DNA from: a virus
Direction: 5' to 3' (one strand)
DNA length: 44,358 nt
Virus record (IMG/VR): IMGVR_UViG_3300044675_002639
Location: 1-44,358 of that record
The notes under the pieces were generated by a model that was not told the DNA's origin, made no database searches, and saw only the letters and a list, made by a program, of their open reading frames with translations. The position numbers were made by a program, and so were the translations under genes. Positions 1-41,401 of this stretch are shown in pieces; the stretch's first letter is position 1, and every line of letters begins with the position of its first letter.

Positions 1-72
1 TTTTCGTAGGCAAGACTTCTAGCTCAAAGATTAAGCGATGGATTTCAGAATTTGAGAGGGAGATGGTGTCCA
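1..72. repeat. Terminal overlap of a circular sequence, left copy
   Basis: These 72 bases recur at 44287-44358 in the same orientation, with two substitutions (position 6 G versus T, position 65 G versus A). Joining the two copies restores one continuous reading frame for a RusA-like protein. This fits a circularly closed or circularly permuted genome, with the two mismatches reflecting strain variation or read error. A true short terminal repeat is less likely because the copies lie within a gene. Confidence 0.85.
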
Positions 73-374
73 AGTCTCTACCAAAATCCCCAATCGATGG
101 GCCAATCTCTGTCCATATCTCATTCAGGTTCGGATACAACAAAGGCATCAGAAAGAAGGATATTGGCAAGATACTGTGGAAGACCACAAGACCGGATCTT
201 GATAATATGGAGAAATCCATACTTGACTCACTTTCCAGGGTTGGCGTGATAACCGAAGACAAGAACGTTGTCTTAAAGTCATCGGAAAAGTGTTATTGCA
301 AGAAACCGGGCATTTACATAACCATCGATAAACTTGGAGAATACAGGGACTTTTCTGAAGATTTCCAAAAATAA
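3..374 (+). CDS. rusA: RusA-like Holliday junction resolvase, C-terminal part (gene spans the contig ends)
   Basis: The frame is open from base 3 and continues the N-terminus encoded at 44187-44358. The joined protein is about 160 residues, within the usual RusA range. RusA enzymes are homodimeric, metal-dependent nucleases that cut four-way junctions during recombination and replication. The diagnostic block is visible: RPDLDN with two aspartates, then a helix, GVITED with a further acidic residue, and a lysine shortly after (KNVVLKSSEK). The ATG at 63 is internal and is not the real start. It is the first gene of the plus-strand recombination operon, 41 bases before an exonuclease gene, so exonuclease, ERF annealing protein and resolvase form one recombination set. 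Family assignment is firm; the specificity is inferred. Confidence 0.85.
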   Translation, partial: FVGKTSSSKIKRWISEFEREMVSKSLPKSPIDGPISVHISFRFGYNKGIRKKDIGKILWKTTRPDLDNMEKSILDSLSRVGVITEDKNVVLKSSEKCYCKKPGIYITIDKLGEYRDFSEDFQK

Positions 375-415: not shown

Positions 416-1255
416 ATGCAATTAATACACGACCTGTCCGACCAGCAATACAAAGACCTTGAAGGAGTTAACTTCTCTTCTTTCAAGAACTTCTTCGTAT
501 CTCCTAACTACTTCAAGTGGAAACTTGAGAACCCAGAGCAAGAAACCGAAGACCTCCTTGTTGGTAATGCAGTCCATTGTGCTGTTCTTCAGCCAAAGGA
601 GTTCAGTAAGAAGTATGCTGTCGCTCCGAAGGTGGACAGGAGAAAGACTCAAGATAAGTTAATCTGGAATGAGTTCATTGAAGCGAACGCAAACAAGTGC
701 GTCCTTTCCGACGAAAGCATGGATATCGTTGCTTCTTGCACCGCTGCTCTTTCCAACTCCAGTTACTTCAAGTCTTTGTTCTCAAAAGGAGATGAGATTT
801 ATATCGAATCGGCCGGCAATTGCGACTTTGCAGGCAGCAAAATCAAGGGCAGAATCGACTTTTATAATAAGACGAAGAACATCATCTTCGATATCAAGAC
901 CTGTAAAGACCATCCAGACTTCCTTCAGATGCGTAGATATGCAGAGGGAAGACTTCATTATATGCAGGGTTTCTTTTACAGCGAGATTGTGATGCAGAAC
1001 TTTCAACTAAAAGAAAGACCTGTTGTAGTCTTCGGATACGTCCACAAGAAGAAGCCTAACACTATCGGACTCTCACAGTTCGGACCTGTTTATATGGAAA
1101 AGGCAAAGAGAGAACTCTCAGAAGCATTGTGCAGATATGAGAACTGCAAGCATACCAATATCTGGCCAGAAGCGTCCACCTCTCTCCTGCCTTCAATCGT
1201 CGAGCCTTTCGGCATTGACACCAGCAATTCCTCTGACGAAGATGCAGACGCATGA
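416..1255 (+). CDS. RecE/exodeoxyribonuclease VIII-like PD-(D/E)XK nuclease
   Basis: This 279-residue protein resembles the exodeoxyribonuclease VIII-like nucleases that degrade one strand of double-stranded DNA to give single strands for annealing. Visible motifs are GNAVH at 50-54, an acidic residue at E131, KGRIDF with D148, FDIKT with D159 and K161 (the D-x-K signature), and QGFFYSE at 184-190, which matches the QxxxY motif of RecB-type nucleases. The C-terminus is acidic (SSDEDADA). It ends in an ATGA overlap with the next gene. The ERF-family annealing protein at 3425 is the expected partner, as RecE pairs with RecT. Family call is strong; the 5'-3' polarity is inferred from the family. 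Confidence 0.88.
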   Translation: MQLIHDLSDQQYKDLEGVNFSSFKNFFVSPNYFKWKLENPEQETEDLLVGNAVHCAVLQPKEFSKKYAVAPKVDRRKTQDKLIWNEFIEANANKCVLSDESMDIVASCTAALSNSSYFKSLFSKGDEIYIESAGNCDFAGSKIKGRIDFYNKTKNIIFDIKTCKDHPDFLQMRRYAEGRLHYMQGFFYSEIVMQNFQLKERPVVVFGYVHKKKPNTIGLSQFGPVYMEKAKRELSEALCRYENCKHTNIWPEASTSLLPSIVEPFGIDTSNSSDEDADA

Positions 1256-1914
1256 ACGAAAAATACGAGCGTTTCTCTGGGGTGTTCGTCCCTAGGGAGG
1301 TGTTGTTGGACAACGAACTATCTGCTAACGCAAAACTGATATTTGCTATCGTGCAATCCCTCGATAACGACAGGGGTTGCTTTGCTAGCAACGAATACAT
1401 CGGCGGTATGGTCGGTATCTGCGACTCCGCTGTTAGGGCTTCCTTGTCTGTCTTGGAGGACAGGAAGTATATCGTAAGACACATAGACTCCGATGGAAAC
1501 CGTTCCATCAAGACCTGCACTACTCAGTCTTTCCGTGCCGAACCCCGCCAGATTTCTAGCGACCCCCCGCCAGAAATCCAGCACGCCCCCCGCCAGATTT
1601 CTAGCACATATAATACTAGGAAGAAGAGAATAGTTAATAACAAGACGCTCCTCCTGCCTCCTCTGCCTCATGGGGAAGAGTTCGCAAAGGCTTGGGAGTC
1701 TTGGGTCGCTTACAGGTCTGAACTGAAAAAGCCGTTGACAAGTGCATCGATGGTGGCACAGTTGAAGTTCCTCAAAGAACAACAAGAACATGACGCAATT
1801 ACATCAATCCAGCAATCTATTCGAAGCGGTTGGTTGGGCCTTTTCCCAGCAACAAAAGTCACCAAGCAAGCCGTCAGGAAACTCCTTACCGACTCCGACC
1901 ATGAAGCCTTTTAA
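1252..1914 (+). CDS. Helix-turn-helix replication-initiator-like protein with origin repeats inside the gene
   Basis: The 220-residue protein starts in an ATGA overlap with the exonuclease gene. Residues 1-95 look like a winged helix-turn-helix of the phage replication-protein type: a start resembling FVPREVLLDNELSANAKLIFAIV, then SNEYIGGMVGICDSAVRASLSVLEDRKYI and a basic wing. Residues about 97-122 are low in complexity and repeat the peptide PRQISS; the DNA there holds three iteron-like repeats followed by an AT-rich stretch. The C-terminal part (about 135-220) is a separate domain. The next gene is a DnaC-like loader. This arrangement, initiator with an embedded origin followed by a helicase loader, mirrors lambda O and P. 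Initiator function is inferred from domain order and context; a plain regulator is the alternative. Confidence 0.68.
   Translation: MNEKYERFSGVFVPREVLLDNELSANAKLIFAIVQSLDNDRGCFASNEYIGGMVGICDSAVRASLSVLEDRKYIVRHIDSDGNRSIKTCTTQSFRAEPRQISSDPPPEIQHAPRQISSTYNTRKKRIVNNKTLLLPPLPHGEEFAKAWESWVAYRSELKKPLTSASMVAQLKFLKEQQEHDAITSIQQSIRSGWLGLFPATKVTKQAVRKLLTDSDHEAF
1547..1642 (+). repeat. Iteron-like repeats and AT-rich stretch inside the initiator gene: candidate replication origin
   Basis: Three 14-base near-dyads lie at 1547-1560 (GCCAGATTTCTAGC), 1569-1582 (GCCAGAAATCCAGC) and 1592-1605 (GCCAGATTTCTAGC). Each follows a C run, and they are spaced 22 and 23 bases apart, about two helical turns. Bases 1606-1642 are A/T-rich (ACATATAATACTAGG and onward). 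The same dyad plus ACATATA recurs in the intergenic region at 34950-34970. Regular spacing next to an AT-rich stretch is typical of initiator-bound origins; that this is an origin is inference. Confidence 0.6.
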
Positions 1915-2569
1915 GTGCGATTGCGGAGGAGACAGGGTTCCTCTCGTTCAAGACGGAAAGATGCGTTCTGCCGAATACTTCTGCCCTTCGTGCGAGCACA
2001 AGTATACGCTTCAAGGCGACCCCAAGCGTGGTGCGTCTTGGGCTTATGAGCCACTTAATCTTCCAGCCGAATACGCAAAGACCGAAGTATCCAAGATACC
2101 CTGCAAGAAGATGCAGGAGGTCGCAGAGAATTGGTGCGGATGGGAGGCTGGACGCTCGTTGCTTCTCCACGGAACCACCAGAGTCGGAAAGACTAGGGCG
2201 GCTTGGGAAGTTACCCGCCGTCATTGGAAGAAGCACTACAAGAGACAGGTCTGCATGACCATGCGTGGCTTCGAGAGAATGATTGAAGAAGGCTTTCAAA
2301 GAAATGACCATAGCAAAAGAATCGATGAAATCATCTCAATGCCATATCTCTACATTGACGACTTGGGCAAGGAACGCACGACACAGCGTGTTGCTTGCGA
2401 CCTCTTCGCCATCATTGACGAACGCACAATCAATCATCGACCGACTATCATTACTACCAATTTCACCTCTTCTGGCCTTCTTGGACGCTTTGACGACCAA
2501 GAGTTAGGGGCTGCTCTGATTGGTCGTTTCCGTGATTACTTCGATTGCATCGGTGCAACCAAAGAATGA
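1901..2569 (+). CDS. DnaC-like helicase loader ATPase with N-terminal zinc ribbon
   Basis: The 222-residue protein is an AAA+ ATPase of the DnaC/IstB type, which loads the replicative helicase onto DNA. An N-terminal zinc-ribbon pattern has cysteines at 6, 8, 28 and 31. Walker A is GTTRVGKT at 91-98, Walker B LYIDD at 150-154, sensor 1 TTN at 185-187, and a basic GRFRDY block at 209-213 may supply the arginine finger. The ATG at 1901 is chosen because the zinc ribbon begins there and it overlaps the previous gene by only 14 bases. An upstream ATG at 1790 would overlap it by 125 bases and encode an unrelated tail. No helicase gene is visible, so a host DnaB-type helicase is the likely client. 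Confidence 0.85.
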   Translation: MKPFKCDCGGDRVPLVQDGKMRSAEYFCPSCEHKYTLQGDPKRGASWAYEPLNLPAEYAKTEVSKIPCKKMQEVAENWCGWEAGRSLLLHGTTRVGKTRAAWEVTRRHWKKHYKRQVCMTMRGFERMIEEGFQRNDHSKRIDEIISMPYLYIDDLGKERTTQRVACDLFAIIDERTINHRPTIITTNFTSSGLLGRFDDQELGAALIGRFRDYFDCIGATKE

Positions 2570-2727: not shown

Positions 2728-3428
2728 AGCCGTATTACCAGAACGAGTTGACTACAATCTACCACGGAGACGTAAACCAGGTCTTCGAGCAGATAGTCCT
2801 ACCAGAAGGGTATACTACAATCAGCGACCCGCCTTATAATCTTGGCTATCACTACGACTATTACGACGACAAGAAGAGCGAAACAGCATATCTTGATTGG
2901 ATGAAGTTCTGGTTCTCAAACAAGAGCGTCATAATCAACTACCCAGAGGCTATGTTCGATATCGCAATCCATATGAACAAGAAGCCGGAAAGGATTGTTA
3001 CTTGGGTTTATCCTTCCAATACTCCTAGGCAGTCTAGGATTATCGCTTGGTTCGGATGCAAGCCAGACCTTACCAGAGACGGACAGCCATACAAAGACCC
3101 CAAAGACCCTCGTTGCATCAAGAGAATGGAAGAGGGCTTCTTGGCTCGTCTGTATGATTGGTGGGAAATCAACCAAATTAAGAACAGAAACACCGAAAAG
3201 ACAGACCACCCCTGTCAGATACCTTTGTTCTTGATGGAACGCATCGTAAGGGTTACACAACCATCTTTTGTATTCGAACCTTTCTCTGGCTCTGGAACAA
3301 CCAACCTTGCTTGCCAGAACCTAGGAGTAAAGTCGGTTGGCGTAGAAGTCTCCGAAAAATACTGCGAAATAATTGCGAAACGACTTGACGACAACCTCCC
3401 TATGTTCCATAACGAACTTGCCAAATGA
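2724..3428 (+). CDS. DNA adenine-type methyltransferase (N6/N4 family), orphan
   Basis: The 234-residue protein has the two hallmark motifs of DNA amino-methyltransferases: DPPY at 35-38 (catalytic motif IV) near the N-terminus and FEPFSGSGTT at 184-193 (motif I, which binds S-adenosylmethionine) near the C-terminus. This order is that of the beta class, and DPPY usually means N6-adenine methylation. The ATG at 2724 overlaps the preceding stop (ATGA) and is preferred over the ATG at 2715. No restriction endonuclease is adjacent, so it is probably an orphan enzyme that protects phage DNA or marks it for replication. The target sequence cannot be predicted here. Confidence 0.88.
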   Translation: MKPYYQNELTTIYHGDVNQVFEQIVLPEGYTTISDPPYNLGYHYDYYDDKKSETAYLDWMKFWFSNKSVIINYPEAMFDIAIHMNKKPERIVTWVYPSNTPRQSRIIAWFGCKPDLTRDGQPYKDPKDPRCIKRMEEGFLARLYDWWEINQIKNRNTEKTDHPCQIPLFLMERIVRVTQPSFVFEPFSGSGTTNLACQNLGVKSVGVEVSEKYCEIIAKRLDDNLPMFHNELAK

Positions 3429-4231
3429 GCCAATACAGACCATACAACTACTATTCTTGGAAAGACTTCTCCGACGAATTTATGCCCGACAACACCATGA
3501 CCAACAACATCGAATATCGTGCCCAACTGAACTCCGCCCTAGTCGCTGCTATCGCAGAAACTAAGGACGTTCTGGCTGACAGCACTAATCCGTTCCACAA
3601 GAACAAGTATGCCTCTCTGGGTGCTCACCTTGAGGCCATCAAGCCTATCTTCCATAAGCACGGATTGGCTATCTTGCAGTTCCCGACCTCGACCGAAAAG
3701 GCGATTGGCGTGAACACCTGCATCGTCCATACTTCTGGTGCTTCCATCGAGGAGAGCATCTGCATCCCTGTTGCTGATAACGTCAAGGGTCAGGAGGCTG
3801 GTGCCATCATCTCGTATCTGCGTCGCTACGCTCTCGCCGCTGTCGCTGGAGTTGCCACCGAAGATGATGATGCCGAGGTCAACCGCATCAGCCAATCCGC
3901 CTCGTCTGGTGCGAGCGTCAAGACCACTTATGTCGCTCCTACGGCTAAATTCATCCCGAACCCTAACGCCTCGTCTGCTCCTGTCGGAGAGGTCAATTTT
4001 GACATTCCTGTTCCGTTCGGCAAGGCTAAGGGGACTACCCTCAACAACCTTCCTCTTGCGGACCTCGACTATTGGGCGAACAAGTGGGAACCCAAGCCGT
4101 GGGAAAAGACCGGAAAGGTAGGTCCTAAGGACTTAGCCTTGAAGTCGTCCGCACAGGCTTTGTGGTCTATCAAGAGTGTCGAACAGGGTTCTAATGACTC
4201 TGACGGCACGGAGGACGCAATTCCCTTCTAA
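3425..4231 (+). CDS. erf: ERF-family single-strand annealing protein with SSB-like acidic tail
   Basis: ERF proteins bind single-stranded DNA and anneal complementary strands in phage recombination. The ERF core covers roughly residues 30-150: STNPFHKNKYASLGAHLEAIKPIFHKHGLAILQ, a HTSG turn, and the signature GAIISYLRRYALAAVAGV followed by EDDD. After a low-complexity linker, about residues 197-223 carry an FGKAKGTTLNNLP...YWAN block resembling the small FGKxKG domain found in some phage recombination proteins. The last residues (DSDGTEDAIPF) imitate the acidic DDDIPF tip of bacterial SSB. The start at 3425 uses an ATGA overlap; the internal ATGs at 3482 and 3497 could also start the core. With the RecE-like nuclease it forms a classical recombination pair. 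Confidence 0.87.
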   Translation: MSQYRPYNYYSWKDFSDEFMPDNTMTNNIEYRAQLNSALVAAIAETKDVLADSTNPFHKNKYASLGAHLEAIKPIFHKHGLAILQFPTSTEKAIGVNTCIVHTSGASIEESICIPVADNVKGQEAGAIISYLRRYALAAVAGVATEDDDAEVNRISQSASSGASVKTTYVAPTAKFIPNPNASSAPVGEVNFDIPVPFGKAKGTTLNNLPLADLDYWANKWEPKPWEKTGKVGPKDLALKSSAQALWSIKSVEQGSNDSDGTEDAIPF

Positions 4232-4240
4232 TCTGGTTTT

Positions 4241-4312
4241 CGGCTTTTAGTTCAACGGATAGAACAACCGCCTTCTAAGCGGTGAATCAAGGTTCGATTC
4301 CTTGAAAGCCGA
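4241..4312 (+). tRNA. tRNA-Arg (anticodon TCT)
   Basis: The cloverleaf can be drawn in full. The acceptor stem is CGGCTTT (4241-4247) with AAAGCCG (4305-4311). The D stem is GTTC with GAAC, the anticodon stem ACCGC with GCGGT around the loop CTTCTAA, the variable loop GAAT, and the T stem CAAGG with CCTTG around TTCGATT. The anticodon TCT at 4274-4276 reads AGA and AGG. The discriminator base is A4312; CCA does not follow directly. It lies 9 bases after the ERF stop, inside the plus-strand operon, so it must be cut out of a polycistronic transcript. AGA/AGG are the main arginine codons in many of the structural genes. Confidence 0.95.
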
Positions 4313-4325
4313 CTCCACAACCAAT

Positions 4326-30079: not shown

Positions 30080-31702
30080 TCAATAAGAACCTCCGCCCAT
30101 CGGTTTGAATGACTGGTCGTCTTGATGGATGGGGTCCATGACTGCAAGGTATCTAAGGGAGTCGATAGGGTCTTTAGTCGCACCTTTTTCACCGTCCTGG
30201 CCAGTCCACTCACGCAGGGAGTAGATGAGGTTTTGACATTTATCGGAAATAAAGAGCTTTGGCTGATTTATAGCTGACAGAGGTTGCGAGCTGTCAAAAG
30301 ATAGCCAGTCGTTGATAATTGCAATGCCTTGGTCGATTTTAATGCCAGCAGAAGGCCTAAAGAACATAGGAGTCTCGCCCTCGCCAAGAAGTTCAATCAA
30401 AGAGGTCCCACCCTGATGCCCAATAGCCTGGGTTGCTCCAGCACGGGGGTCAATATACCTCTCAACTACCTCTTTTCCGTCTTCGAGTTCGAGAATAAGC
30501 TTTTTATACTCATCCAGACCCCTTCCTGCACCAGACCTTTGAGCAGGTCCTTCACGCCCATCAGGGTCTGAGTCAGGCAAGGCCCATTCCCCGTATTTTT
30601 CGTCTGGGAATTCCCTGTAAATAAAGATTTTTCCGTCTGGAGTGACCCTTGCCCAAAGCATGAACCAATTTCTTGCTCCAGCTGGGTCGATTGCCATGTA
30701 GTTTGTGCCTTCTTCCGGGATTTCTTCGTCTTTGACGATGTGCGTGTCCGTGAATTGCGGGAATTGCGAGCCGACAAGTGCTTGCGCCCAGCCATACGCT
30801 CTGATTTTCTTTTCATAATCTGTTTTAGAAGACAATTCTTTCGCCATTCTCTCGAAAGACGAGTAAACATTGAACTTTGAGTGAAACCAGATAATGCCTT
30901 GGTTCTTATTTCTACTTTCTGCGGTAAAAGGCATCTTTCCTTTAGGGCATCCAGGCACATGAACTAGGTTTTGTGCGAGAAGTTCTGCTTTTTCGGTCTT
31001 CAAGAACCTACAACCGCTTACATACTCCTTGACTACCTGGGAAAATCCATTGATAGGAGTGAAAGTAATCAGCAATTTGCCTAGTCTGGTAAGGATTCGG
31101 TAACGCAACGTCTGCACCCAGTCGAGAGGAACAAGTTCGTCGCACCAAATAAAGTCAGGTTCGCCACCTTCGATGACTACTTTATCCTGTGCGTAGTTCA
31201 TGAAGATACATTGAGACCCGTTAGGGAAGACGAAACTGTTGTTTGAGAACCCGTTTTTCAGGGAATACTGGATATTTGTGACTCTACCTTTCTTTAGCGT
31301 CTTATATTCTGACGGCACATACTTCCAGAGAACGTTCTGTTGCATCTGGATTGAAGACATGGAGGTTGTATGGATGCACCAGACGATAGAATTAGGCTTG
31401 TTTACGAGCGTATAAATAGCTCTCTTGGCTGCATATTCGGTCTTGCCAGCACGATTGCCACCAAGAATCAGCAATTCATCCTTTTCCTTGAGCAGATTGT
31501 CGGCTTCAGCCCAATGAAACGGCTCATATCCGTGCCTGTAAGGGTCGGACTTCTCCGCTTGAATCTTGTCTTCTCTAAGTTGAATCAGTTTTGCAACATA
31601 ATCAAACCCCTTGGACTCAATCATCTGGCGAAGAGAATCTTCATCAGGCTTCTTGAGCACGGGATGCTCAGTCATCCTTTCAACAATTGAGGACGGGTTC
31701 AC
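30080..31702 (-). CDS. terL: Terminase large subunit
   Basis: The 540-residue motor-nuclease packages DNA into the procapsid. Walker A is GGNRAGKT at 81-88, Walker B FIWCDE at 184-189, and the coupling motif ITFTP at 212-216. The C-terminal RNase H-like nuclease has acidic residues in YMAIDPAG (D339), RYIDPRAG (D418) and KDPIDSLRY near residue 515. The GTG at 31702 overlaps the stop of the upstream gene (GTGA) and is taken as the start; an ATG at 31675 is an alternative nine codons in. No recognisable small terminase lies directly upstream; two coiled-coil paralogues take that place. Confidence 0.92.
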   Translation of the reverse strand: MNPSSIVERMTEHPVLKKPDEDSLRQMIESKGFDYVAKLIQLREDKIQAEKSDPYRHGYEPFHWAEADNLLKEKDELLILGGNRAGKTEYAAKRAIYTLVNKPNSIVWCIHTTSMSSIQMQQNVLWKYVPSEYKTLKKGRVTNIQYSLKNGFSNNSFVFPNGSQCIFMNYAQDKVVIEGGEPDFIWCDELVPLDWVQTLRYRILTRLGKLLITFTPINGFSQVVKEYVSGCRFLKTEKAELLAQNLVHVPGCPKGKMPFTAESRNKNQGIIWFHSKFNVYSSFERMAKELSSKTDYEKKIRAYGWAQALVGSQFPQFTDTHIVKDEEIPEEGTNYMAIDPAGARNWFMLWARVTPDGKIFIYREFPDEKYGEWALPDSDPDGREGPAQRSGAGRGLDEYKKLILELEDGKEVVERYIDPRAGATQAIGHQGGTSLIELLGEGETPMFFRPSAGIKIDQGIAIINDWLSFDSSQPLSAINQPKLFISDKCQNLIYSLREWTGQDGEKGATKDPIDSLRYLAVMDPIHQDDQSFKPMGGGSY

Positions 31703-32709
31703 TTGAAAAGGGCGGAGTTTAACTGAAATACTAGGTCGGGTCTGGCTTTAACAGTTTCACGAAGCTTTGCTTCAGAAAGGTTATACTCCCTGTTTTTTTC
31801 CCATCTGGCATCATTTTCGGCAGCCATCTTTGCAATGCCTTCAAGTGATTCCTTGGTAACAGTCATTCCTCCGATGTCTTGGACTTCTGAATCAAGATAA
31901 GAGTCTCCCTTGGAGTCCATGTGCCTGAACGGACCTACTCCAGCCAGAGTTGCAATATCTTTTACGTCGGCATACTGGCTGACAGGTTCTGCAAGAAGGC
32001 GACCCATCTTGCTTCCTCCCCACTTTTTCGGGTCTAGACCAAGTTCTTTTAATTTGGCATCCCAACTTGCAAGCGAGGAAACTATCTTCGACTGTCTTTT
32101 CGTAATATTTCCCTCTTGTGCTTCTATTTCTCTAACTCTTGCCATTTCTTCTTCAGTAAGACTTCTGTCCTGAAGAATGGCAATATTTTGAATAGTGTCA
32201 GACTCTCTTGCCAAGGCAAATTCTTTAAACGCTTCAGACTCAATATTGGAAGCAAGCCTATTAAGCCCAGGATATTCAAGTCTTAGTGCTTCGATTTTCT
32301 TTTGTCTTTGAATTGCGAGTTCGATTTTCTTCAAATCTGCAAGCGACTTCTTTGCATTCCTCCTGAGTTCTTCAGTATCAGCACGATAGCTTTCTCCTTG
32401 AGGTGCTTTCTTCTGCGATTCGAGTCTTCTTACAAGTTCTTCTCTTTGAATCGCAAGTTTTACCTTGGCGTATTCAGGATCGAATTTAGGAATGAAACGT
32501 TTTCCAGTTACTGCTTCAGTCGTAACGGACTTAAAGTCAAACGGCTCTGAAATATCTCTATACAAAGGAGCATTTCCTTCTGAAAATAGAAATTCTCTTG
32601 GACCAAACTCATCCTGGATGTCCATCCAATTAGACCTTAATGCAGATTCTCTCCAATCTCTGAATCCCCAATAGGATTCGATAAACTGTCGCTTGTCAGG
32701 TTGAGACAT
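31699..32709 (-). CDS. Coiled-coil protein, paralogue of the next gene, upstream of terL
   Basis: The 336-residue protein shares its last roughly 100 residues with the 417-residue protein encoded at 32725-33978. Common elements are GRLLAEPVSQYADVKDIA, AGVGPF, a DSxGxxYxDxEV turn, and an identical end RPDLVFQLNSALFK. The N-terminal 220 residues are charged and helical (RREELVRRLESQKKAPQGE, then KKSLADLKKIELAIQRQKKIEAL) and differ between the two. The gene overlaps the terL start by 4 bases. The position suggests a packaging or virion-internal role, perhaps in place of a small terminase, but no DNA-binding motif is evident. Confidence 0.68.
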   Translation of the reverse strand: MSQPDKRQFIESYWGFRDWRESALRSNWMDIQDEFGPREFLFSEGNAPLYRDISEPFDFKSVTTEAVTGKRFIPKFDPEYAKVKLAIQREELVRRLESQKKAPQGESYRADTEELRRNAKKSLADLKKIELAIQRQKKIEALRLEYPGLNRLASNIESEAFKEFALARESDTIQNIAILQDRSLTEEEMARVREIEAQEGNITKRQSKIVSSLASWDAKLKELGLDPKKWGGSKMGRLLAEPVSQYADVKDIATLAGVGPFRHMDSKGDSYLDSEVQDIGGMTVTKESLEGIAKMAAENDARWEKNREYNLSEAKLRETVKARPDLVFQLNSALFK

Positions 32710-32724
32710 AAATTAGGGGTCTAT

Positions 32725-33978
32725 TCATTTGAATAGTGCTGAGTTTAATTGAAATACCAAGTCGGGTCTGGACTTAACGGTTTCACGAAGCTTTGCTTCT
32801 TGTTCGATATAGCCTTTGTTTTTCTGTCTGCTATCTAGTTCTGCCTCATCCCATCTTGCCTGACGGAAAGCAGGTTCAAGAGATTCTGTCGAGAACTTTT
32901 GACCATCAATTTCAGTAACTTCAGCATCAGTATAAGTATTACCTTGACTGTCGTAATTTTTAAAAGGTCCTACTCCTGCAATTGAAGCAATGTCTTTAAC
33001 GTCAGCATACTGGCTTACAGGTTCAGCAAGAAGTCTTCCAGCAAGATTAAATCCTTTAACGTTTAGACCCTTTTCAGTAAGCGTATTAGATGCGTTTACA
33101 TGAGCAGATTTATATTCTTTGCTTCCGATGGTTTGCTTTTCAATTGCACTAGCAATTTTTTCTCTTTCTGCTTTCAGTTCTGCTAGTTGCTGCTTTAGTT
33201 TTTCCCATTCAGGCTTATGAAGCTCAGAAAGTTCTGGATTAAATTCTCCTGACAACTTGCTGGTAAGATCACGCAGTTCATAAAATCCAAGCATAGCTTC
33301 CGTGACCTTGATTTGTGAATCAATCACACGAGTAGGCTTCATCCCAGACTCATACTTGTCATAGATTTTTCTGACTGTTTTCCAGTTAGAGTCAAAGTCC
33401 GCGTCTTCTTCTGCAAGTTTTAGCATCTTAGCATCTCTTGACTCAAGCCGTCTTGCGTTCTCAAGATTCTGCTTTTGATTGCTTAACTCAACTCTTTGAG
33501 AGTCAACTTTTCCCTTCAAATCAGAGTAAGGTCCTTGAAGTTCCGCTTGCCTCCAATCTGGAGCATCGGCAAACTCTTGAAGAAGTGCCTGAAGCTTCTT
33601 ATCTTGAAAATCAAAAGAACCACTAAACCACTTAACCTTCTGTTCCAATGATGCAGGCTGAAGGATGTCAGGTAGAACCTTTCTTTTCCATGAATCGCCA
33701 CCATCCAACGGCCTGTCAGCTAACGGAGCACGAAACTCTGGCTCAAATGAGCCTTGTCCTCTCTTCTTAAGCCAAGCATCTGCACGTTTTCTCCAATCAG
33801 ACGCACTATCGCTTTCCTTAGGTGGTTCAAAATAACTTACATTTGGCCTGTCTTGGCCTTGTATGTAAAACTTTCTTGCCCTTTCAGTAGCCGCACCTTC
33901 TGCGTCACTAATGTTTACAGTTCCATAAGTGCCGTCATCCCATCCCAAGTAATAAGGGTCGAAGTATTGATTAGCCAT
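32725..33978 (-). CDS. Coiled-coil protein, paralogue of the preceding-in-list gene
   Basis: The 417-residue protein begins NQYFDPYYLGWDDGTYGTVN and carries a long coiled coil near residues 170-300 (VDSQRVELSNQKQNLENARRLESRDAKMLKLAEED, then LKQQLAELKAEREKIASAIEKQ). The last 100 residues match the 336-residue neighbour, with the same ending RPDLVFQLNSALFK. This points to tandem duplication followed by divergence of the N-terminal part, or to two proteins using one common docking domain. Spacing to the next gene is 15 bases. It is not recognised as a known family; a virion-associated role is plausible from the late-operon position. Confidence 0.68.
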   Translation of the reverse strand: MANQYFDPYYLGWDDGTYGTVNISDAEGAATERARKFYIQGQDRPNVSYFEPPKESDSASDWRKRADAWLKKRGQGSFEPEFRAPLADRPLDGGDSWKRKVLPDILQPASLEQKVKWFSGSFDFQDKKLQALLQEFADAPDWRQAELQGPYSDLKGKVDSQRVELSNQKQNLENARRLESRDAKMLKLAEEDADFDSNWKTVRKIYDKYESGMKPTRVIDSQIKVTEAMLGFYELRDLTSKLSGEFNPELSELHKPEWEKLKQQLAELKAEREKIASAIEKQTIGSKEYKSAHVNASNTLTEKGLNVKGFNLAGRLLAEPVSQYADVKDIASIAGVGPFKNYDSQGNTYTDAEVTEIDGQKFSTESLEPAFRQARWDEAELDSRQKNKGYIEQEAKLRETVKSRPDLVFQLNSALFK

Positions 33979-34425: not shown

Positions 34426-34878
34426 TCAACCAGCAAAAACTCTTCCTGCATTATTTACCTTGAACAAGCCTACCCATCTACCACCCCTATAAACCGCCGT
34501 AATGATGCTGCCACGCCTCAGGAACGAGGAGTCCCTTACCAAGACATTCTCCCATTGTCCTCTGATTTCGCAAGCAACCAGTTTCTTGTTCGGAAGAATT
34601 TGTTTTACAATTGCAGGACATCTGTCAAGAGCATTGACCTCTGGCTTAGTCTCGACAACCTCAACCTCTTCCTGAGCCGTAGGCTCATCAAATTTTATAT
34701 TTTTGACAGACAGCAGCCTGCGAAGGCCGCTGTCGGTCCACAAAATAACAGGATTGCCGTTAGAGGTCTTGTCAAGAACCCAGTCAACGCCCTCCTTGTA
34801 ATCGTCCGACCTTCTGAACTCGACCAACTCCTTCTTCGTAAATGGCCAAGTTTCAATAATAGTCTTTTCTCTGAACAT
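34426..34878 (-). CDS. First gene of the late operon, unknown, possibly DNA-binding
   Basis: The 150-residue protein starts at ATG 34878, preceded by GGTGG five bases upstream; a GTG at 34902 would extend it by eight residues without an obvious ribosome site. The N-terminal half is helical and charged (WPFTKKELVEFRRSDDYKEGVDW, then ILWTDSGLRRLL), which could be a DNA-binding unit. The C-terminal half is beta-rich (AIVKQILPNKKLVACEIRG, then IITAVYRGGRWVGLFKV), like a small barrel. It faces the control region with the dyad repeats, so it may be autoregulated. A late regulator or a small terminase are both conceivable; neither is shown. Confidence 0.65.
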   Translation of the reverse strand: MFREKTIIETWPFTKKELVEFRRSDDYKEGVDWVLDKTSNGNPVILWTDSGLRRLLSVKNIKFDEPTAQEEVEVVETKPEVNALDRCPAIVKQILPNKKLVACEIRGQWENVLVRDSSFLRRGSIITAVYRGGRWVGLFKVNNAGRVFAG

Positions 34879-34926
34879 ATTTACCACCAATATACCTAGC
34901 ACCCGCCAAAAAACAAGCGGGGGGTC

Positions 34927-35023
34927 GCTATTTTTCTAGCGGGGGGGGCGCTAGATTTCTAGCACATATAGTAATAGAAGATAATAATAGTAGATAATAA
35001 AAAGAGGGTGCTAGTTTTCTAGC
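34927..35023. repeat. Dyad repeats and AT-rich stretch matching the repeats in the initiator gene
   Basis: Three 14-base dyads lie at 34927-34940 (GCTATTTTTCTAGC), 34950-34963 (GCTAGATTTCTAGC, a perfect 6-base palindrome around TT) and 35010-35023 (GCTAGTTTTCTAGC). The first two follow G runs and are 23 bases apart. Between the second and third lies an A/T-only stretch rich in TAATA. The second dyad plus ACATATA is nearly identical to 1592-1611 inside the initiator gene. The likely reading is a second binding site for the same protein, serving as origin or as operator for the divergent late and small-gene transcripts. Confidence 0.65.
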
Positions 35024-35079
35024 GTCTTGACAGCTCTTTTTTGTAAAAAAATTGTCTGGGGCAGGACCATTTGATTCTA

Positions 35080-35136
35080 CGGATTTTTACAAGTGTAAAG
35101 ACCCCCTCCCCCCTTTACACTTTTTTTACAAATCCG
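35080..35136 (+). terminator. Long hairpin with T tract in the control region
   Basis: AAGTGTAAAG (35091-35100) pairs perfectly with CTTTACACTT (35113-35122), with a C-rich loop and a following run of seven T. Outer arms CGGATTT (35080-35086) and AAATCCG (35130-35136) also pair. On the plus strand it looks like a rho-independent terminator. No gene ends just before it, so it might stop a short transcript or isolate the minus-strand promoter region; as DNA it could extrude as a cruciform near the origin-like repeats. Confidence 0.55.
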
Positions 35137-35137
35137 T

Positions 35138-35200
35138 CATAAAGCCTCCAAACGAGCGTAAAACGATCATAAACGCTCCAAACGCTCATAAATCAGTCGA
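35138..35200 (+). repeat. Direct repeats CATAAA..CTCCAAACG
   Basis: CATAAAGCCTCCAAACGAGC (35138-35157) and CATAAACGCTCCAAACGCTC (35168-35187) are 20-base direct repeats 30 bases apart. A third partial copy, CATAAATCAGTCG, begins at 35188. The element AAACGATCATAAACG between them adds to the periodic look. They lie next to the dyad repeats and the large hairpin, so a protein-binding array for replication or transcription control is likely. No protein partner can be named. Confidence 0.5.
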
Positions 35201-35300
35201 TTATTGTCATATTTGAGGCTTCCCTTTGGCGGTCAGATCGGTCATATTATTTGAGTCAGGGCAACCTAAGGGTCGAATGACTACCACCAGCCTAGCGAAA

Positions 35301-35560
35301 GGCGGGCGATCGGCGTGAAACCCTGTCGCACCCCCTCTGACCGAAGCCACGGACGTATCTTTGACATAGGGCTAACCACGCCTGCCAACAGAGGAACTGC
35401 GACACCCGCCCTAAATGCCAAGGCGTAAGCGTGAGCGTGAGACAGTAGGGCAAACCCTACCAAGTAGTCCCGAGGATTAGCACTATCAGGGATATGTCAG
35501 TAGAAAGCGTGCTGACTAAAACGATAGTGCGGTAACTTAGCACTCGGCCTGTTACGTAAG
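35301..35560. ncRNA. Candidate structured RNA or structured leader
   Basis: No credible protein frame lies here, but long-range complementarity is strong. GGCGGG (35301-35306) pairs with CCCGCC (35405-35410), TGTCGCA (35324-35330) with TGCGACA (35398-35404), and CCTCTG (35334-35339) with CAGAGG (35389-35394). These are collinear, giving one interrupted helix of 19 base pairs. Further elements are a GTAGGG/CCCTAC hairpin (35445-35460) and GCACTATC (35480-35487) with GATAGTGC (35523-35530), enclosing GTCAG/CTGAC. GTAAC/GTTAC at 35532-35555 may add a stem. The strand is unknown; on the plus strand it would lead into the gene at 35740. No known RNA family was recognised. Bases 35561-35739 hold no recognised gene. 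Confidence 0.5.
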
Positions 35561-35739
35561 TCATAATGGATAACATATGCGGTAGCACGCTAGAGGACGA
35601 ACCATCAGTAGCGTTGTGTAGTCGTAGTATTCGAACCTTCTTACTTTCGCCCGTGTGGGGCAACTCGCAAGAGGAATACCAGACTAGTAGAGTGAACCAA
35701 CAGCATCGAACGTCGAAACACATAGGAAGGTAATCAAAA

Positions 35740-36045
35740 ATGACGCAGAAACACAAGTGGAACACGTCCTGGAAGTTCAGCGAAGAGACCAACGCTCTCG
35801 TTACTTCTATCGAGTCTTCCTTCGATGTGTCTGATGAAGCCAAGCGAGTCCTCCGACTTCGCGTGGCCGCATCTGGTAAGACGCTTGCCTACATTGTCTC
35901 CTTGGAGTCTTCCTTGGAGGCTGGTGCTGGCTTCTTCCATCCTGCCCTTATCATCAGCCCTCACAAGCTGGATAAGCGTGGAGACATCATCGAGAAGCTC
36001 GAAGGACTTGGCATCGAGAACCCGTTTGATATCATCATCGGGTAA
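35740..36045 (+). CDS. Unknown 101-residue protein, first of the small-gene cluster
   Basis: The start has a recognisable ribosome site (AGGAAGG about ten bases upstream). The protein begins MTQKHKWNTSWKFSEETNAL and is mixed helix and strand, ending with an acidic and then hydrophobic tail (EKLEGLGIENPFDIIIG). It has no membrane segment or known motif. Codon use is more G/C-rich, with CGN arginine codons, unlike the late genes. It is followed by a strong terminator-like hairpin, so it may be made from its own short transcript starting in the structured control region. Function unknown; an early host-takeover protein is a reasonable guess. Confidence 0.65.
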   Translation: MTQKHKWNTSWKFSEETNALVTSIESSFDVSDEAKRVLRLRVAASGKTLAYIVSLESSLEAGAGFFHPALIISPHKLDKRGDIIEKLEGLGIENPFDIIIG

Positions 36046-37892: not shown

Positions 37893-39455
37893 TTAACTGA
37901 GATTGTGATCGCTGGTATATTCGTGCCTAATGTTATCAATAGCACTTACGACATTTACCCACTTATCCCAAGTTGGGGTAGACTCATTGAGTGTGGGAAG
38001 TTGGAAAGCACCACAATGCGAGTTATTCGCAAGGTGCTTTTCCCACAAAGGTTTGAATTTGCCAATTCGCTCGATCACATAAACCTTGAGTTCCAGCGGA
38101 CATTCGGACTCCATAAAGTCCTCAAAGGTGTCAATCTTGGTAGAGTTATTGACACACCAGAACATAAGGCTTGCCCACATCTTCAACTTCCAGAAGTTTA
38201 GGGTAGGCATACCAACACGCACTTCCACAGTATTGTGTTCACTATGGCAATGGGTATTAATAGCAGAATACCTAGAAGCCTGAGAGTCAGCCCATACCGA
38301 ACAATAGCGGTTTGTGGCTCTACGAGGACTTATGGTTCTATGCAACCACGACTTAAACGCATCTCTGACCCTTCCAGCGATCCTGTAATAAGTAGCAGAA
38401 GGGCGGTTTCGCATATCAATATGAACGTGGCAACCACAGGATTTGTTGATCCTACCACCTGCGTCAGTTAGCAGTTTCAGGGTATTCTGGACTTTATCCC
38501 AATTCTCTTGATTGTTGATATTGAGGAAAGCCTTATACTCCTGATAACGAGCAACTGCCTCATCTTGGCAATCCGTAGTAATGCTACCATCCGTGGTAAA
38601 CGAATTCCACCTAGAAGTGGGGTAATCATCACTATCCCAAGTTGCCAAAGGTGCGTTATTCTCGGAAACGAATTCCAACTCGATCCCGATACAATCACCT
38701 TCTGGGAACTTACGGAAAGCCACAGTCTTGTGGAAGTTGTCAAGATGCCTAGACCAGTGCATTGGGGCAGTATGGTAGATCCTGTCCATTGCTGCTTCCC
38801 ACTTTTCTTGGATAGTCTCGCTTCTCACGAAACCACGAGCATAGTGGTTTCTGCCAGACTGCAGGTTCTCGCAACCATCCATAAAGTAGCGGAATGCGTT
38901 TCCGTGCAGTTTCATGAATTGCGAGACATTGACTTTCACCTCATTCCAGTCGGTTTCGAAAACCCAGGGATTGGTGATATAGGTGCTATGCTGGATATTC
39001 GTAGGAATACGATCTTTGCACAACAGGTGGATCCAGCCTTCCACATTATTGCGGAAATACCCAGATTGATGGGTTCCCTTGATATGGGAATTATAGACTT
39101 TCGTCACCCAATCAAAAAGGCTGGACTTGTGGTTTCGGTGGATCTTGCATTCCAGCAGTTGTCCGATAGCCTCACAACGCTGTTTAATGCCGTTTGCTGA
39201 GATCGAAGAACAATGGTTATGCGAGTAATTGGTGGAAGACGAGAGTCCCAGAACCACACAATCCGGATGCTTACGGACAATGGGGTTCAGGTTGTTCCAC
39301 CAATTCGCACGACTATCGAGAGTCATGTAATGGCCGAAATCAGCGCTATGCTTGTTTAGCATAGAAATGACTTTCTTCTGTTTCTTGGCAATCGGCTTCC
39401 GAATGGAAAGCAGAAAACCAAGTTTATCGGGGGTTTCCTTATTATCAGGCTTCAT
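37893..39455 (-). CDS. Amidoligase (glutamine-synthetase-like COOH-NH2 ligase) with large N-terminal extension
   Basis: The C-terminal half of this 520-residue protein carries the signatures of the amidoligase family, a glutamine-synthetase-fold group that uses ATP to join a carboxylate to an amine. They are GIELEF at 257-262 (metal/ATP glutamates), TTDGSI at 287-292, CGCHVHIDM at 340-348 (the HxH block), and TVEVRV at 409-414 (the E-x-R block). Residues 1-245 form an extra domain that I do not recognise, rich in Trp, His and Asn, with three Cys and His clusters (SSTNYSHNHCSS). It is the second gene of a two-gene operon after a class II glutamine amidotransferase, which could supply ammonia or transfer a glutaminyl group. 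Known amidoligases are predicted to make peptide-like tags or to modify proteins or cell wall; the substrate here is unknown. Confidence 0.82.
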   Translation of the reverse strand: MKPDNKETPDKLGFLLSIRKPIAKKQKKVISMLNKHSADFGHYMTLDSRANWWNNLNPIVRKHPDCVVLGLSSSTNYSHNHCSSISANGIKQRCEAIGQLLECKIHRNHKSSLFDWVTKVYNSHIKGTHQSGYFRNNVEGWIHLLCKDRIPTNIQHSTYITNPWVFETDWNEVKVNVSQFMKLHGNAFRYFMDGCENLQSGRNHYARGFVRSETIQEKWEAAMDRIYHTAPMHWSRHLDNFHKTVAFRKFPEGDCIGIELEFVSENNAPLATWDSDDYPTSRWNSFTTDGSITTDCQDEAVARYQEYKAFLNINNQENWDKVQNTLKLLTDAGGRINKSCGCHVHIDMRNRPSATYYRIAGRVRDAFKSWLHRTISPRRATNRYCSVWADSQASRYSAINTHCHSEHNTVEVRVGMPTLNFWKLKMWASLMFWCVNNSTKIDTFEDFMESECPLELKVYVIERIGKFKPLWEKHLANNSHCGAFQLPTLNESTPTWDKWVNVVSAIDNIRHEYTSDHNLS

Positions 39456-39506: not shown

Positions 39507-40568
39507 TTAGTCGTTATGTTTCCAGGGTTTGTTGTTAGCCCTGTATCTACGCAGTTGTTCCTTTCGGAGTTCTTTGATATCCTCGGACTCCGGCTTTTGG
39601 GCAGGAGTAGTGGAAGGAGAGGAAGTGGGAGTATTAGTAGTTGCGGTATATCCGTCTACTTGGTCTTCCCAATAAGAACCGTATCCATAAGAACCGCTAG
39701 TAGTGCCATAACCAGCAACACCAGCAGAACCGAGAGATCGGCTAATTGCACCATATCCAATTCTACGGGAATATGACTCGAACTTGGAAAACTCATTACT
39801 CTCGATCTCACCATTTGCGAGGAACGTATGTTTCACATAAGGTGCGAGAAGCATAGGAGTAGTGATAGTGGCAGTTTTGAGTCCATTGAAGGTAAGCATC
39901 AAATTAGCCAATTCGGTGCAATGGGTAGAGTCTGTGCAAATGATATATTGCCCAAGTTGCTTGATATACACAAGATACAAAGGAGCACGATCATCACGTA
40001 AACAGAACATATCACCATTTGGGTTAATACCCACAACTGCGGCATATCCAGAAAGTCCCTCTTTAAAGGAATGTTCACCTTCTGCATAAAGGAAGCAATT
40101 TAGGATATGCTCAGAGTCGCAAGTTGTGTGGGTCGGGTATTTCTCACCTTCCCAATCAACTACGCCATTATGGGCAATCGTATATTCACCCTTTTCGCTG
40201 GTTCCATTGAAAGGGTGAGTATTGGTGATCGACTTTCCACAGGTTGCAGTCCTTCCGTGGGCAATATAAGACCTGAGGACTTTGCCATTTTCTGGCTTTG
40301 CACCTTTCTGGTCATAGTCGATCCCGTAGGTTAACTGAGTCCTGATACTTGCGGGAAGTGTGTCCCGAGAGTCTTTCAGCACTCCGATACCTTTGCAGGT
40401 TTCCGGGTTCTGGTATCTTTCCATGAACACACCTTTAGTGGTTTGCATGGCATAACCGAAACCATCCTTTTGTGAAGAACCCAGGAGTTCCGCAGATTTG
40501 CGGACTACCTGACTTGCCTGCTTTAAGGATTTGCAGGCAATTACGTTCATTGCTATTAGTTTACACAT
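39507..40568 (-). CDS. Class II glutamine amidotransferase (Ntn-hydrolase) with Tyr/Gly/Ser-rich tail
   Basis: The 353-residue protein begins MCK, so removal of Met exposes Cys2, the N-terminal nucleophile of class II glutaminases, which release ammonia from glutamine. Family motifs follow: QKDGFGY at 33-39, HGRTATCG at 104-111 with THPF at 117-120, AHNG at 132-135, CDSE at 150-153 and LRDDRAPL at 190-197. Only the glutaminase domain, about 230 residues, is present. No synthase domain is attached; the neighbouring amidoligase probably plays that part. Residues 265-312 are low in complexity (GYGTTSGSYGYGSYW) and the last 25 are charged and helical, perhaps a docking segment. It is the first gene of the operon, with a good promoter 90 bases upstream. 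Confidence 0.85.
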   Translation of the reverse strand: MCKLIAMNVIACKSLKQASQVVRKSAELLGSSQKDGFGYAMQTTKGVFMERYQNPETCKGIGVLKDSRDTLPASIRTQLTYGIDYDQKGAKPENGKVLRSYIAHGRTATCGKSITNTHPFNGTSEKGEYTIAHNGVVDWEGEKYPTHTTCDSEHILNCFLYAEGEHSFKEGLSGYAAVVGINPNGDMFCLRDDRAPLYLVYIKQLGQYIICTDSTHCTELANLMLTFNGLKTATITTPMLLAPYVKHTFLANGEIESNEFSKFESYSRRIGYGAISRSLGSAGVAGYGTTSGSYGYGSYWEDQVDGYTATTNTPTSSPSTTPAQKPESEDIKELRKEQLRRYRANNKPWKHND

Positions 40569-40685: not shown

Positions 40686-40701
40686 GCACATAATTTACTG
40701 G

Positions 40702-40900
40702 AAAACCGGAATCAGATTTTTGTTGGTTTGATAGTTTGTTGTAGTTTGCAAAATGATCTGCAATCAGTTTAAAACCGGAAGTGATTATCTTGCTTTTATC
40801 TGGATTTAACGCCGGCTTTCTTTTTGTGGAAAAACTGGAAGCGATCTAAAACTTGTTTCAGTCAAAAACGTGATCAGAACGTCAGCTGGAATGAGATTTT
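40702..40900. repeat. Degenerate repeats AAAACCGGAA..GAT upstream of the module promoter
   Basis: AAAACCGGAATCAGAT (40702-40717), AAAACCGGAAGTGATTAT (40771-40788), AAAACTGGAAGCGATCT (40831-40847) and CTGGAATGAGATTTT (40886-40900) share a core CYGGAAnnnGAT, spaced about 69, 60 and 53 bases. They begin about 16 bases upstream of the -35 element, so an activator or repressor array is likely. No gene is seen in 40569-41158; bases 40901-41158 are T-rich, with two ATATACCATTA copies near 41093 and 41137. Confidence 0.5.
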
Positions 40901-41158: not shown

Positions 41159-41401
41159 TTACGACTTTTTGTCGAAACTCGCTTCGAACTTTTCCATCTG
41201 AAGGTCTAGTATCAGTTTTGAGTAAGCCAAGATAAGGCCCTCTCTTGCTGCATAATCCTTAGTTCTCTCATATTGGTCTACGAGAGAAAGGACAGGCATC
41301 ATCTTCTCGATGGTGTCTGCCTTTACTCCGAGCATGACGGCACAGCCAGATATGGAAGAGTTCTTTCTCTGGCCTTTGTTAATCTTATCGTTTGGTGACA
41401 T
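41159..41401 (-). CDS. Unknown 80-residue helical protein
   Basis: The protein (MSPNDKINKGQRKNSSISGC, then a helix EKMMPVLSLVDQYERTKDYAAREGLILAYSKLILDLQMEKFEASFDKKS) is mostly alpha-helical, with two cysteines or hydrophobic pairs in its first third. It overlaps the upstream gene by 17 bases and is the last gene of the minus-strand group that starts at 44183. No motif recognised. It might be a small regulator or host-interacting protein. Confidence 0.6.
   Translation of the reverse strand: MSPNDKINKGQRKNSSISGCAVMLGVKADTIEKMMPVLSLVDQYERTKDYAAREGLILAYSKLILDLQMEKFEASFDKKS

Follow-up and report, generated by a model that had tools for sequence, protein, structure and literature searches.

Why should a phage genome carry, at the head of its late genes, a second copy of the dyads that lie inside its replication initiator gene? 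The question is raised by IMG/VR virus record IMGVR_UViG_3300044675_002639 (positions 1 to 44,358), the whole of which, 44,358 bp, is called the window here and which is a phage genome closing on itself. One set of dyads (array A) lies inside the gene of an O-like initiator of 220 amino acids (aa), and another (array B) occupies intergenic DNA at 34905-35023. A sequence-only reading of the window had pointed out the resemblance and proposed that one protein serves both places, either joining replication control to late or small-gene transcription or providing two origins. We consider it probable, from sequence and from comparison with relatives, that array B is a second copy of the phage's lambda-type origin, which the 220-aa initiator would bind along with the in-gene copy and which would act as a later origin and/or a fork barrier.

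The two arrays and the initiator

The window's ends overlap by 72 nt, imperfectly (97% identity), and as relatives carry exact terminal repeats (127 nt in genome G001, 81 nt in G007) the window was treated as a circle of 44,286 bp. Along it the arrays lie 10.93 kb apart, in agreement with the 10.9 kb given earlier. The arrays and the genes next to them are as follows.

1252-1914, plus strand: O-like initiator gene, 220 aa, HTH_36, holding array A (profile matches and structure model)
1547-1605: array A, inside the initiator gene, three 14-bp dyads
1547-1560: array A unit 1, GCCAGATTTCTAGC (dyad scan)
1569-1582: array A unit 2, GCCAGAAATCCAGC (dyad scan)
1592-1605: array A unit 3, GCCAGATTTCTAGC, adjoining the A/T-rich tract (dyad scan)
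1606-1645, plus strand: ACATATA and A/T-rich tract of array A, 75% A/T over 40 bp, in the top 0.3% of the genome's 40-bp windows
1790-2569, plus strand: DnaC-like helicase loader (phrog_50, IstB-like ATPase), following the initiator gene
34426-34902, minus strand: 158-aa gene heading the leftward late block (terminase, portal, capsid), no family match
34905-35023: array B, intergenic, upstream of the late operon, with dyads, ACATATA and an A/T-rich tract
34905-34918: array B unit 0, GCCAAAAAACAAGC, a weak dyad that departs from the degenerate dyad pattern at 2 positions and precedes unit 1 by 22 bp
34927-34940: array B unit 1, GCTATTTTTCTAGC (dyad scan)
34950-34963: array B unit 2, GCTAGATTTCTAGC, adjoining the A/T-rich tract, conserved in contig L010 and genomes G001 and G010-G015
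34964-35003, plus strand: ACATATA and A/T-rich tract of array B, putative unwinding element, 85% A/T over 40 bp
35010-35023: array B unit 3, GCTAGTTTTCTAGC, the far-side dyad, set 60 bp from unit 2 and found at the same place in L010, G001, G011 and G013

Both arrays consist of 14-bp dyads mostly 22-23 bp apart (22-23 bp throughout array A), followed by ACATATA and then by an A/T-rich tract; GCCAGATTTCTAGC with ACATATA spans 1592-1612 in array A, and in array B ACATATA (34964-34970) comes right after GCTAGATTTCTAGC. The near match between 34950-34970 and the site at about 1592 on which the sequence-only reading was built (GCTAGATTTCTAGC against GCCAGATTTCTAGC) is borne out, with an ungapped direct match of 29 nt at 90% and a gapped one of 58 columns at 81% (50.9 bits), the similarity running from the dyad across ACATATA into the A/T-rich tract. 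The two further dyads and the A/T-rich stretch reported with it are also there (34927 and 35010, with the weak fourth at 34905), and the fraction of the genome's 40-bp windows that reach the 85% A/T of the tract rounds to 0.0000. A recognisable unit stands at the position of unit 0 in contig L010, and the far-side dyad of array B was not found in array A. A dyad scan of the whole window that allowed 3 mismatches or fewer found 18 matches, where shuffles had a mean of 3.9 (largest 9), and with up to 2 mismatches the sole clusters in the genome were 1547/1569/1592 and 34927/34950/35010.

The initiator matches phrog_678 “replication initiation O-like” (E 3e-17) in addition to HTH_36. Its AlphaFold2 model (mean predicted local distance difference test score, pLDDT, 70) shows a winged-helix region (about 15-88) joined by a low-confidence linker to C-terminal helices, and matches in the PDB are mostly winged-helix proteins, with weak E-values. 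The linker, which by this model is probably disordered, is the part encoded by array A. In the distant phage G007, whose initiator is about 28% identical to that of the window, the dyads of array A are translated in another frame; array A is therefore conserved at the DNA level and under selection as DNA. An O-like initiator with an N-terminal DNA-binding domain, in-gene dyads with an A/T-rich tract and an adjoining loader gene, the marks of a lambda-type in-gene origin, are all present. As far as sequence can tell, array A is such an origin, with initiator binding and opening of the tract predicted, and array B shares its anatomy.

Beside array B, at 35030-35060, TTGACA is followed about 6 nt on by TTTTGTAAAAA, an arrangement repeated in G001 (41218-41300) and in the upstream region of L010, which is possibly a promoter or a site for another protein. 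Some 700 nt without a convincing gene (35030-35739) separate array B from the first small gene (35740). A structured RNA considered at 35200-35740 was dropped, as Rfam gave no match and blastn against the equivalent part of G001 showed no similarity.

Two arrays in related genomes

Relatives were gathered using the initiator, its neighbour gene and the dyad motif, and in a survey of 32 genomes each initiator gene was compared by blastn with the rest of its own genome. The motif is indeed shared: a second array is present in 12 of the 32, eight of them in a 44-kb group that includes the window and four in a very distant group of 62-66 kb (G007, G020, G028 and G031). The same blastn test gave no second array in lambda, GJ44, SE-1, Cormatin, ANDSL2, J-1 or Cruim01; Cruim01, like G017, G025, G032 and G033, was covered over most of the record, and the absence of a second array from these five is incomplete. 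The named phages have no DNA similarity to array A or array B, and Flavobacterium phage elemoF, a cultured relative by terminase, has no recognised O gene in the stretch examined. Apparent second copies in G022 and G023 were rejected as simple A/T-rich or coding similarity. Also rejected were a motif match in L033, isolated and without an array, and a host assignment through bacterial genomes, in which two motif matches inside unrelated coding genes look like chance.

The places of the arrays are constant within each group. In 8/8 of the 44-kb genomes array A lies in the initiator gene and array B beside a homolog of the 158-aa late-block gene, next to which array B is also found in contigs L009 and L010; in the 62-66-kb group it is flanked by two conserved genes and lies just upstream of the gene for the large terminase. 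The two arrays are 6-12 kb apart in every two-array genome, and array B retains ACATATA and the A/T-rich tract in 12/12. In G001 the homolog of the 158-aa gene is a 235-aa open frame with two in-frame transfer RNA (tRNA) genes, for Met and Ala (L021 1202-1354; G001:C1 about 40701-40853, minus strand).

Within genomes, the arrays vary together. In the 44-kb group the mean match between A and B of the same genome was attained by 84 of 40,320 permutations, and by 54 of 5,040 when G015, a close relative of G014, was left out; in the 62-66-kb group it was attained by 1 of 24, the minimum possible. Since the window's own array A is not the nearest to its own array B (rank 5), covariation is a signal of the set as a whole, to which G012, G013 and the 62-66-kb group contribute most. 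The most informative case is that of G020, G028 and G031, where the dyad is replaced in both arrays by a CTATAG-centred one, at the same genomic places as the GCCAGATTTCTGGC-like dyads of both G007 arrays. Covariation of this kind is expected if one protein reads both arrays and/or recombination keeps them alike. The proposal that a single protein serves both places gains strong support from these 12 genomes, and that protein, the 220-aa initiator, very probably binds both arrays. As a separate observation, G028 and G031 each have an odd middle unit (CTCGGCAAG core) common to A and B within the genome, as if recombination had copied it.

The direction of array B is not constant. Its A/T-rich tract leads away from the late block in the window, G001, G011 and L010, and toward it in G010 and G012-G015, where the module is inverted in place; the flanking gene and the TTTTGTAAAAA-like element hold their position despite the inversion. 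The initiator tree is compatible with a single inversion, whereas the portal tree needs two changes of orientation, yet does not rule out one. A module whose components are retained while its direction changes is more readily understood as a replication site than as an operator tied to a promoter. The opposite senses of the G runs at array B and the C runs in the initiator gene, remarked on in the sequence-only reading, are real in the window; they are not conserved, the B arrays of relatives mixing both senses, and so are not meaningful. Twelve genomes in two distant groups form a comparative test set, in which the identity of the dyads between copies, the A/T-rich tract and the 6-12 kb separation are kept, and module orientation and the sense of the G/C runs are free.

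A proposed second origin and its alternatives

We propose that the O-like initiator binds array A, in its own gene, and array B. Array A would most likely start early (theta) replication with the DnaC-like loader, and array B would most likely serve at a later stage, as a second origin and/or as a fork barrier formed by bound initiator; from there, recombination by RusA, exonuclease and ERF could restart replication into concatemers for packaging. Initiator binding, origin firing and the early/late division of labour between A and B are what we infer. In lambda, two iterons and the adjacent A/T-rich tract suffice for unwinding (PMC7466680), and array B has both. The Bacillus subtilis phage SPP1 has two origins of like build, both bound by the initiator G38P, with oriL in the initiator gene and oriR 12-13 kb off in the late region; a proposal for oriR is that it halts the fork and so brings about the change to concatemer synthesis, and the phage has a RusA-family resolvase, an exonuclease and an annealing protein (PMC6316719, PMC3485210, PMC5615212). 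With this precedent, and with the corresponding recombination genes encoded around the initiator gene in the window and kept in 8/8 of the 44-kb genomes, array B can be taken as a second origin or fork barrier like oriR. These genes are:

63-374, plus strand: RusA Holliday-junction resolvase (PF05866, E 4e-16), in all seven 44-kb-group relatives
416-1255, plus strand: exonuclease VIII-like nuclease (PF12684, phrog_412), conserved in the 44-kb group
3425-4231, plus strand: ERF-family single-strand annealing protein (PF04404), conserved in the 44-kb group

Several observations weigh against a second origin of this kind. The A/T content after array B is not above that after array A in 5/8 of the 44-kb genomes and is unremarkable in G010, and GC skew gives no clear origin signal; as a marker of origins GC skew was in any case rejected, as it is confounded by gene strand, and only in the 62-66-kb group do its minima fall about 0.6-2.7 kb from B. 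The covariation could be due in part to gene conversion between the arrays, and the recombination part of the proposal may not be general, since a search of the 62-66-kb group for the window's RusA, exonuclease and ERF gave no match.

Array B could instead be mainly an operator through which the initiator switches the late (leftward) and/or small-gene (rightward) operon, coupling transcription to replication. We hold this to be unlikely. It would suit the position of B between divergent units and directly upstream of the late block in both phage groups, and the TTGACA and conserved TTTTGTAAAAA-like element that adjoin B in several relatives, but fixed promoter-operator spacing would not easily tolerate the inversion, in five genomes, of a module that includes the A/T-rich tract and the far-side dyad; there is also no excess of sigma-70-like promoters, and an unwinding tract would be unneeded. 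Of the functions offered by the sequence-only reading, two origins are the better supported, by a complete module with an A/T-rich tract, by its inversion as a unit and by the SPP1 precedent, whereas no direct evidence was found for a link between replication and late or small-gene transcription.

Iteron plasmids use distant arrays as control sites, and array B might likewise be no origin itself but a site that titrates the initiator or bridges it to A (handcuffing) and in this way limits or times the starts made at A. The separation of 6-12 kb in all genomes and the free orientation are what bridging would allow; dyads alone would do for this purpose, yet B keeps ACATATA and the A/T-rich tract throughout the set, and we find such a role rather improbable. 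A chance resemblance, or a dead remnant left by duplication of part of the initiator gene, is very hard to credit: in G006 tblastn gives a weak, stop-containing initiator match over B, as a duplicated gene piece would, but B is kept, and covaries with A, in 8/8 of the syntenic 44-kb genomes as well as in a distant group, and A has no counterpart of the far-side dyad. A bolder extension of the second-origin proposal, and an unlikely one, is that A and B form one long-range unit bridged by the initiator, so that replication start, concatemer switch and onset of late expression would be a single decision set by how far the two covarying arrays are occupied, and this in both of the distant phage groups.

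Genome setting and known systems

Array B lies directly upstream of the 158-aa gene, with terminase and SU10-type capsid genes farther left. The reading frame of RusA runs open to the left end of the window, and the start of the gene probably lies across the circle junction. A tRNA-Arg (TCT) gene occurs at 4241-4313, just 3' of the ERF gene, and G014 and G015 also have tRNA-Arg (TCT) near ERF. An amidoligase-like gene and a class-II glutamine amidotransferase-like gene adjoin each other at 37893-39455 and 39507-40568 (minus strand), a pair found in all 44-kb relatives. The neighbouring genes at 31699-32709 and 32725-33978 (minus strand) share stretches of about 80% DNA identity at a spacing of 1.03 kb, which suggests that tandem duplication has occurred in the interval from the 110-aa gene to the terminase gene.

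One initiator acts at two separated groups of its own sites in satellite phage P4 (ori and crr) and in the iteron plasmids P1 and R6K. Unlike the window, P4 has a primase-helicase initiator and needs both sites, and the plasmid arrays serve copy control; to our knowledge, neither P4 nor the iteron plasmids carry another full origin module ahead of a late operon. The lambda O protein and ori, found also in Stx phages (PMC7466680), resemble array A and its gene in that a helicase-loader gene follows, and differ in having a single array.

A close parallel is SPP1, with one origin in the initiator gene and one in non-coding late-region DNA, about 12-13 kb apart on a 44-kb circle, where the window has a second site of the same build in late-region non-coding DNA 10.9 kb away (6-12 kb in relatives). 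In both, the origins combine repeats with an A/T-rich unwinding element, putative in the window, and initiator, helicase loader, RusA-family resolvase, exonuclease and annealing protein are encoded nearby, the last three being phage-coded throughout the 44-kb group. The iterons of the window are lambda-like palindromes with G/C-run spacers, whereas those of SPP1 are described as direct repeats; unlike SPP1, the window's array B has a far-side dyad and sits at the head of the late block, and module orientation varies among relatives. Paired origins under one phage initiator are described for SPP1, the role of its second origin being still a proposal, and the present set suggests that in O-like phages annotated solely for the origin in the initiator gene a second origin can go unnoticed. 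Relative to SPP1, the novelty would be that two phage groups have a lambda-type origin in duplicate, with copies that covary, and by analogy this pair may act as the SPP1 pair does.
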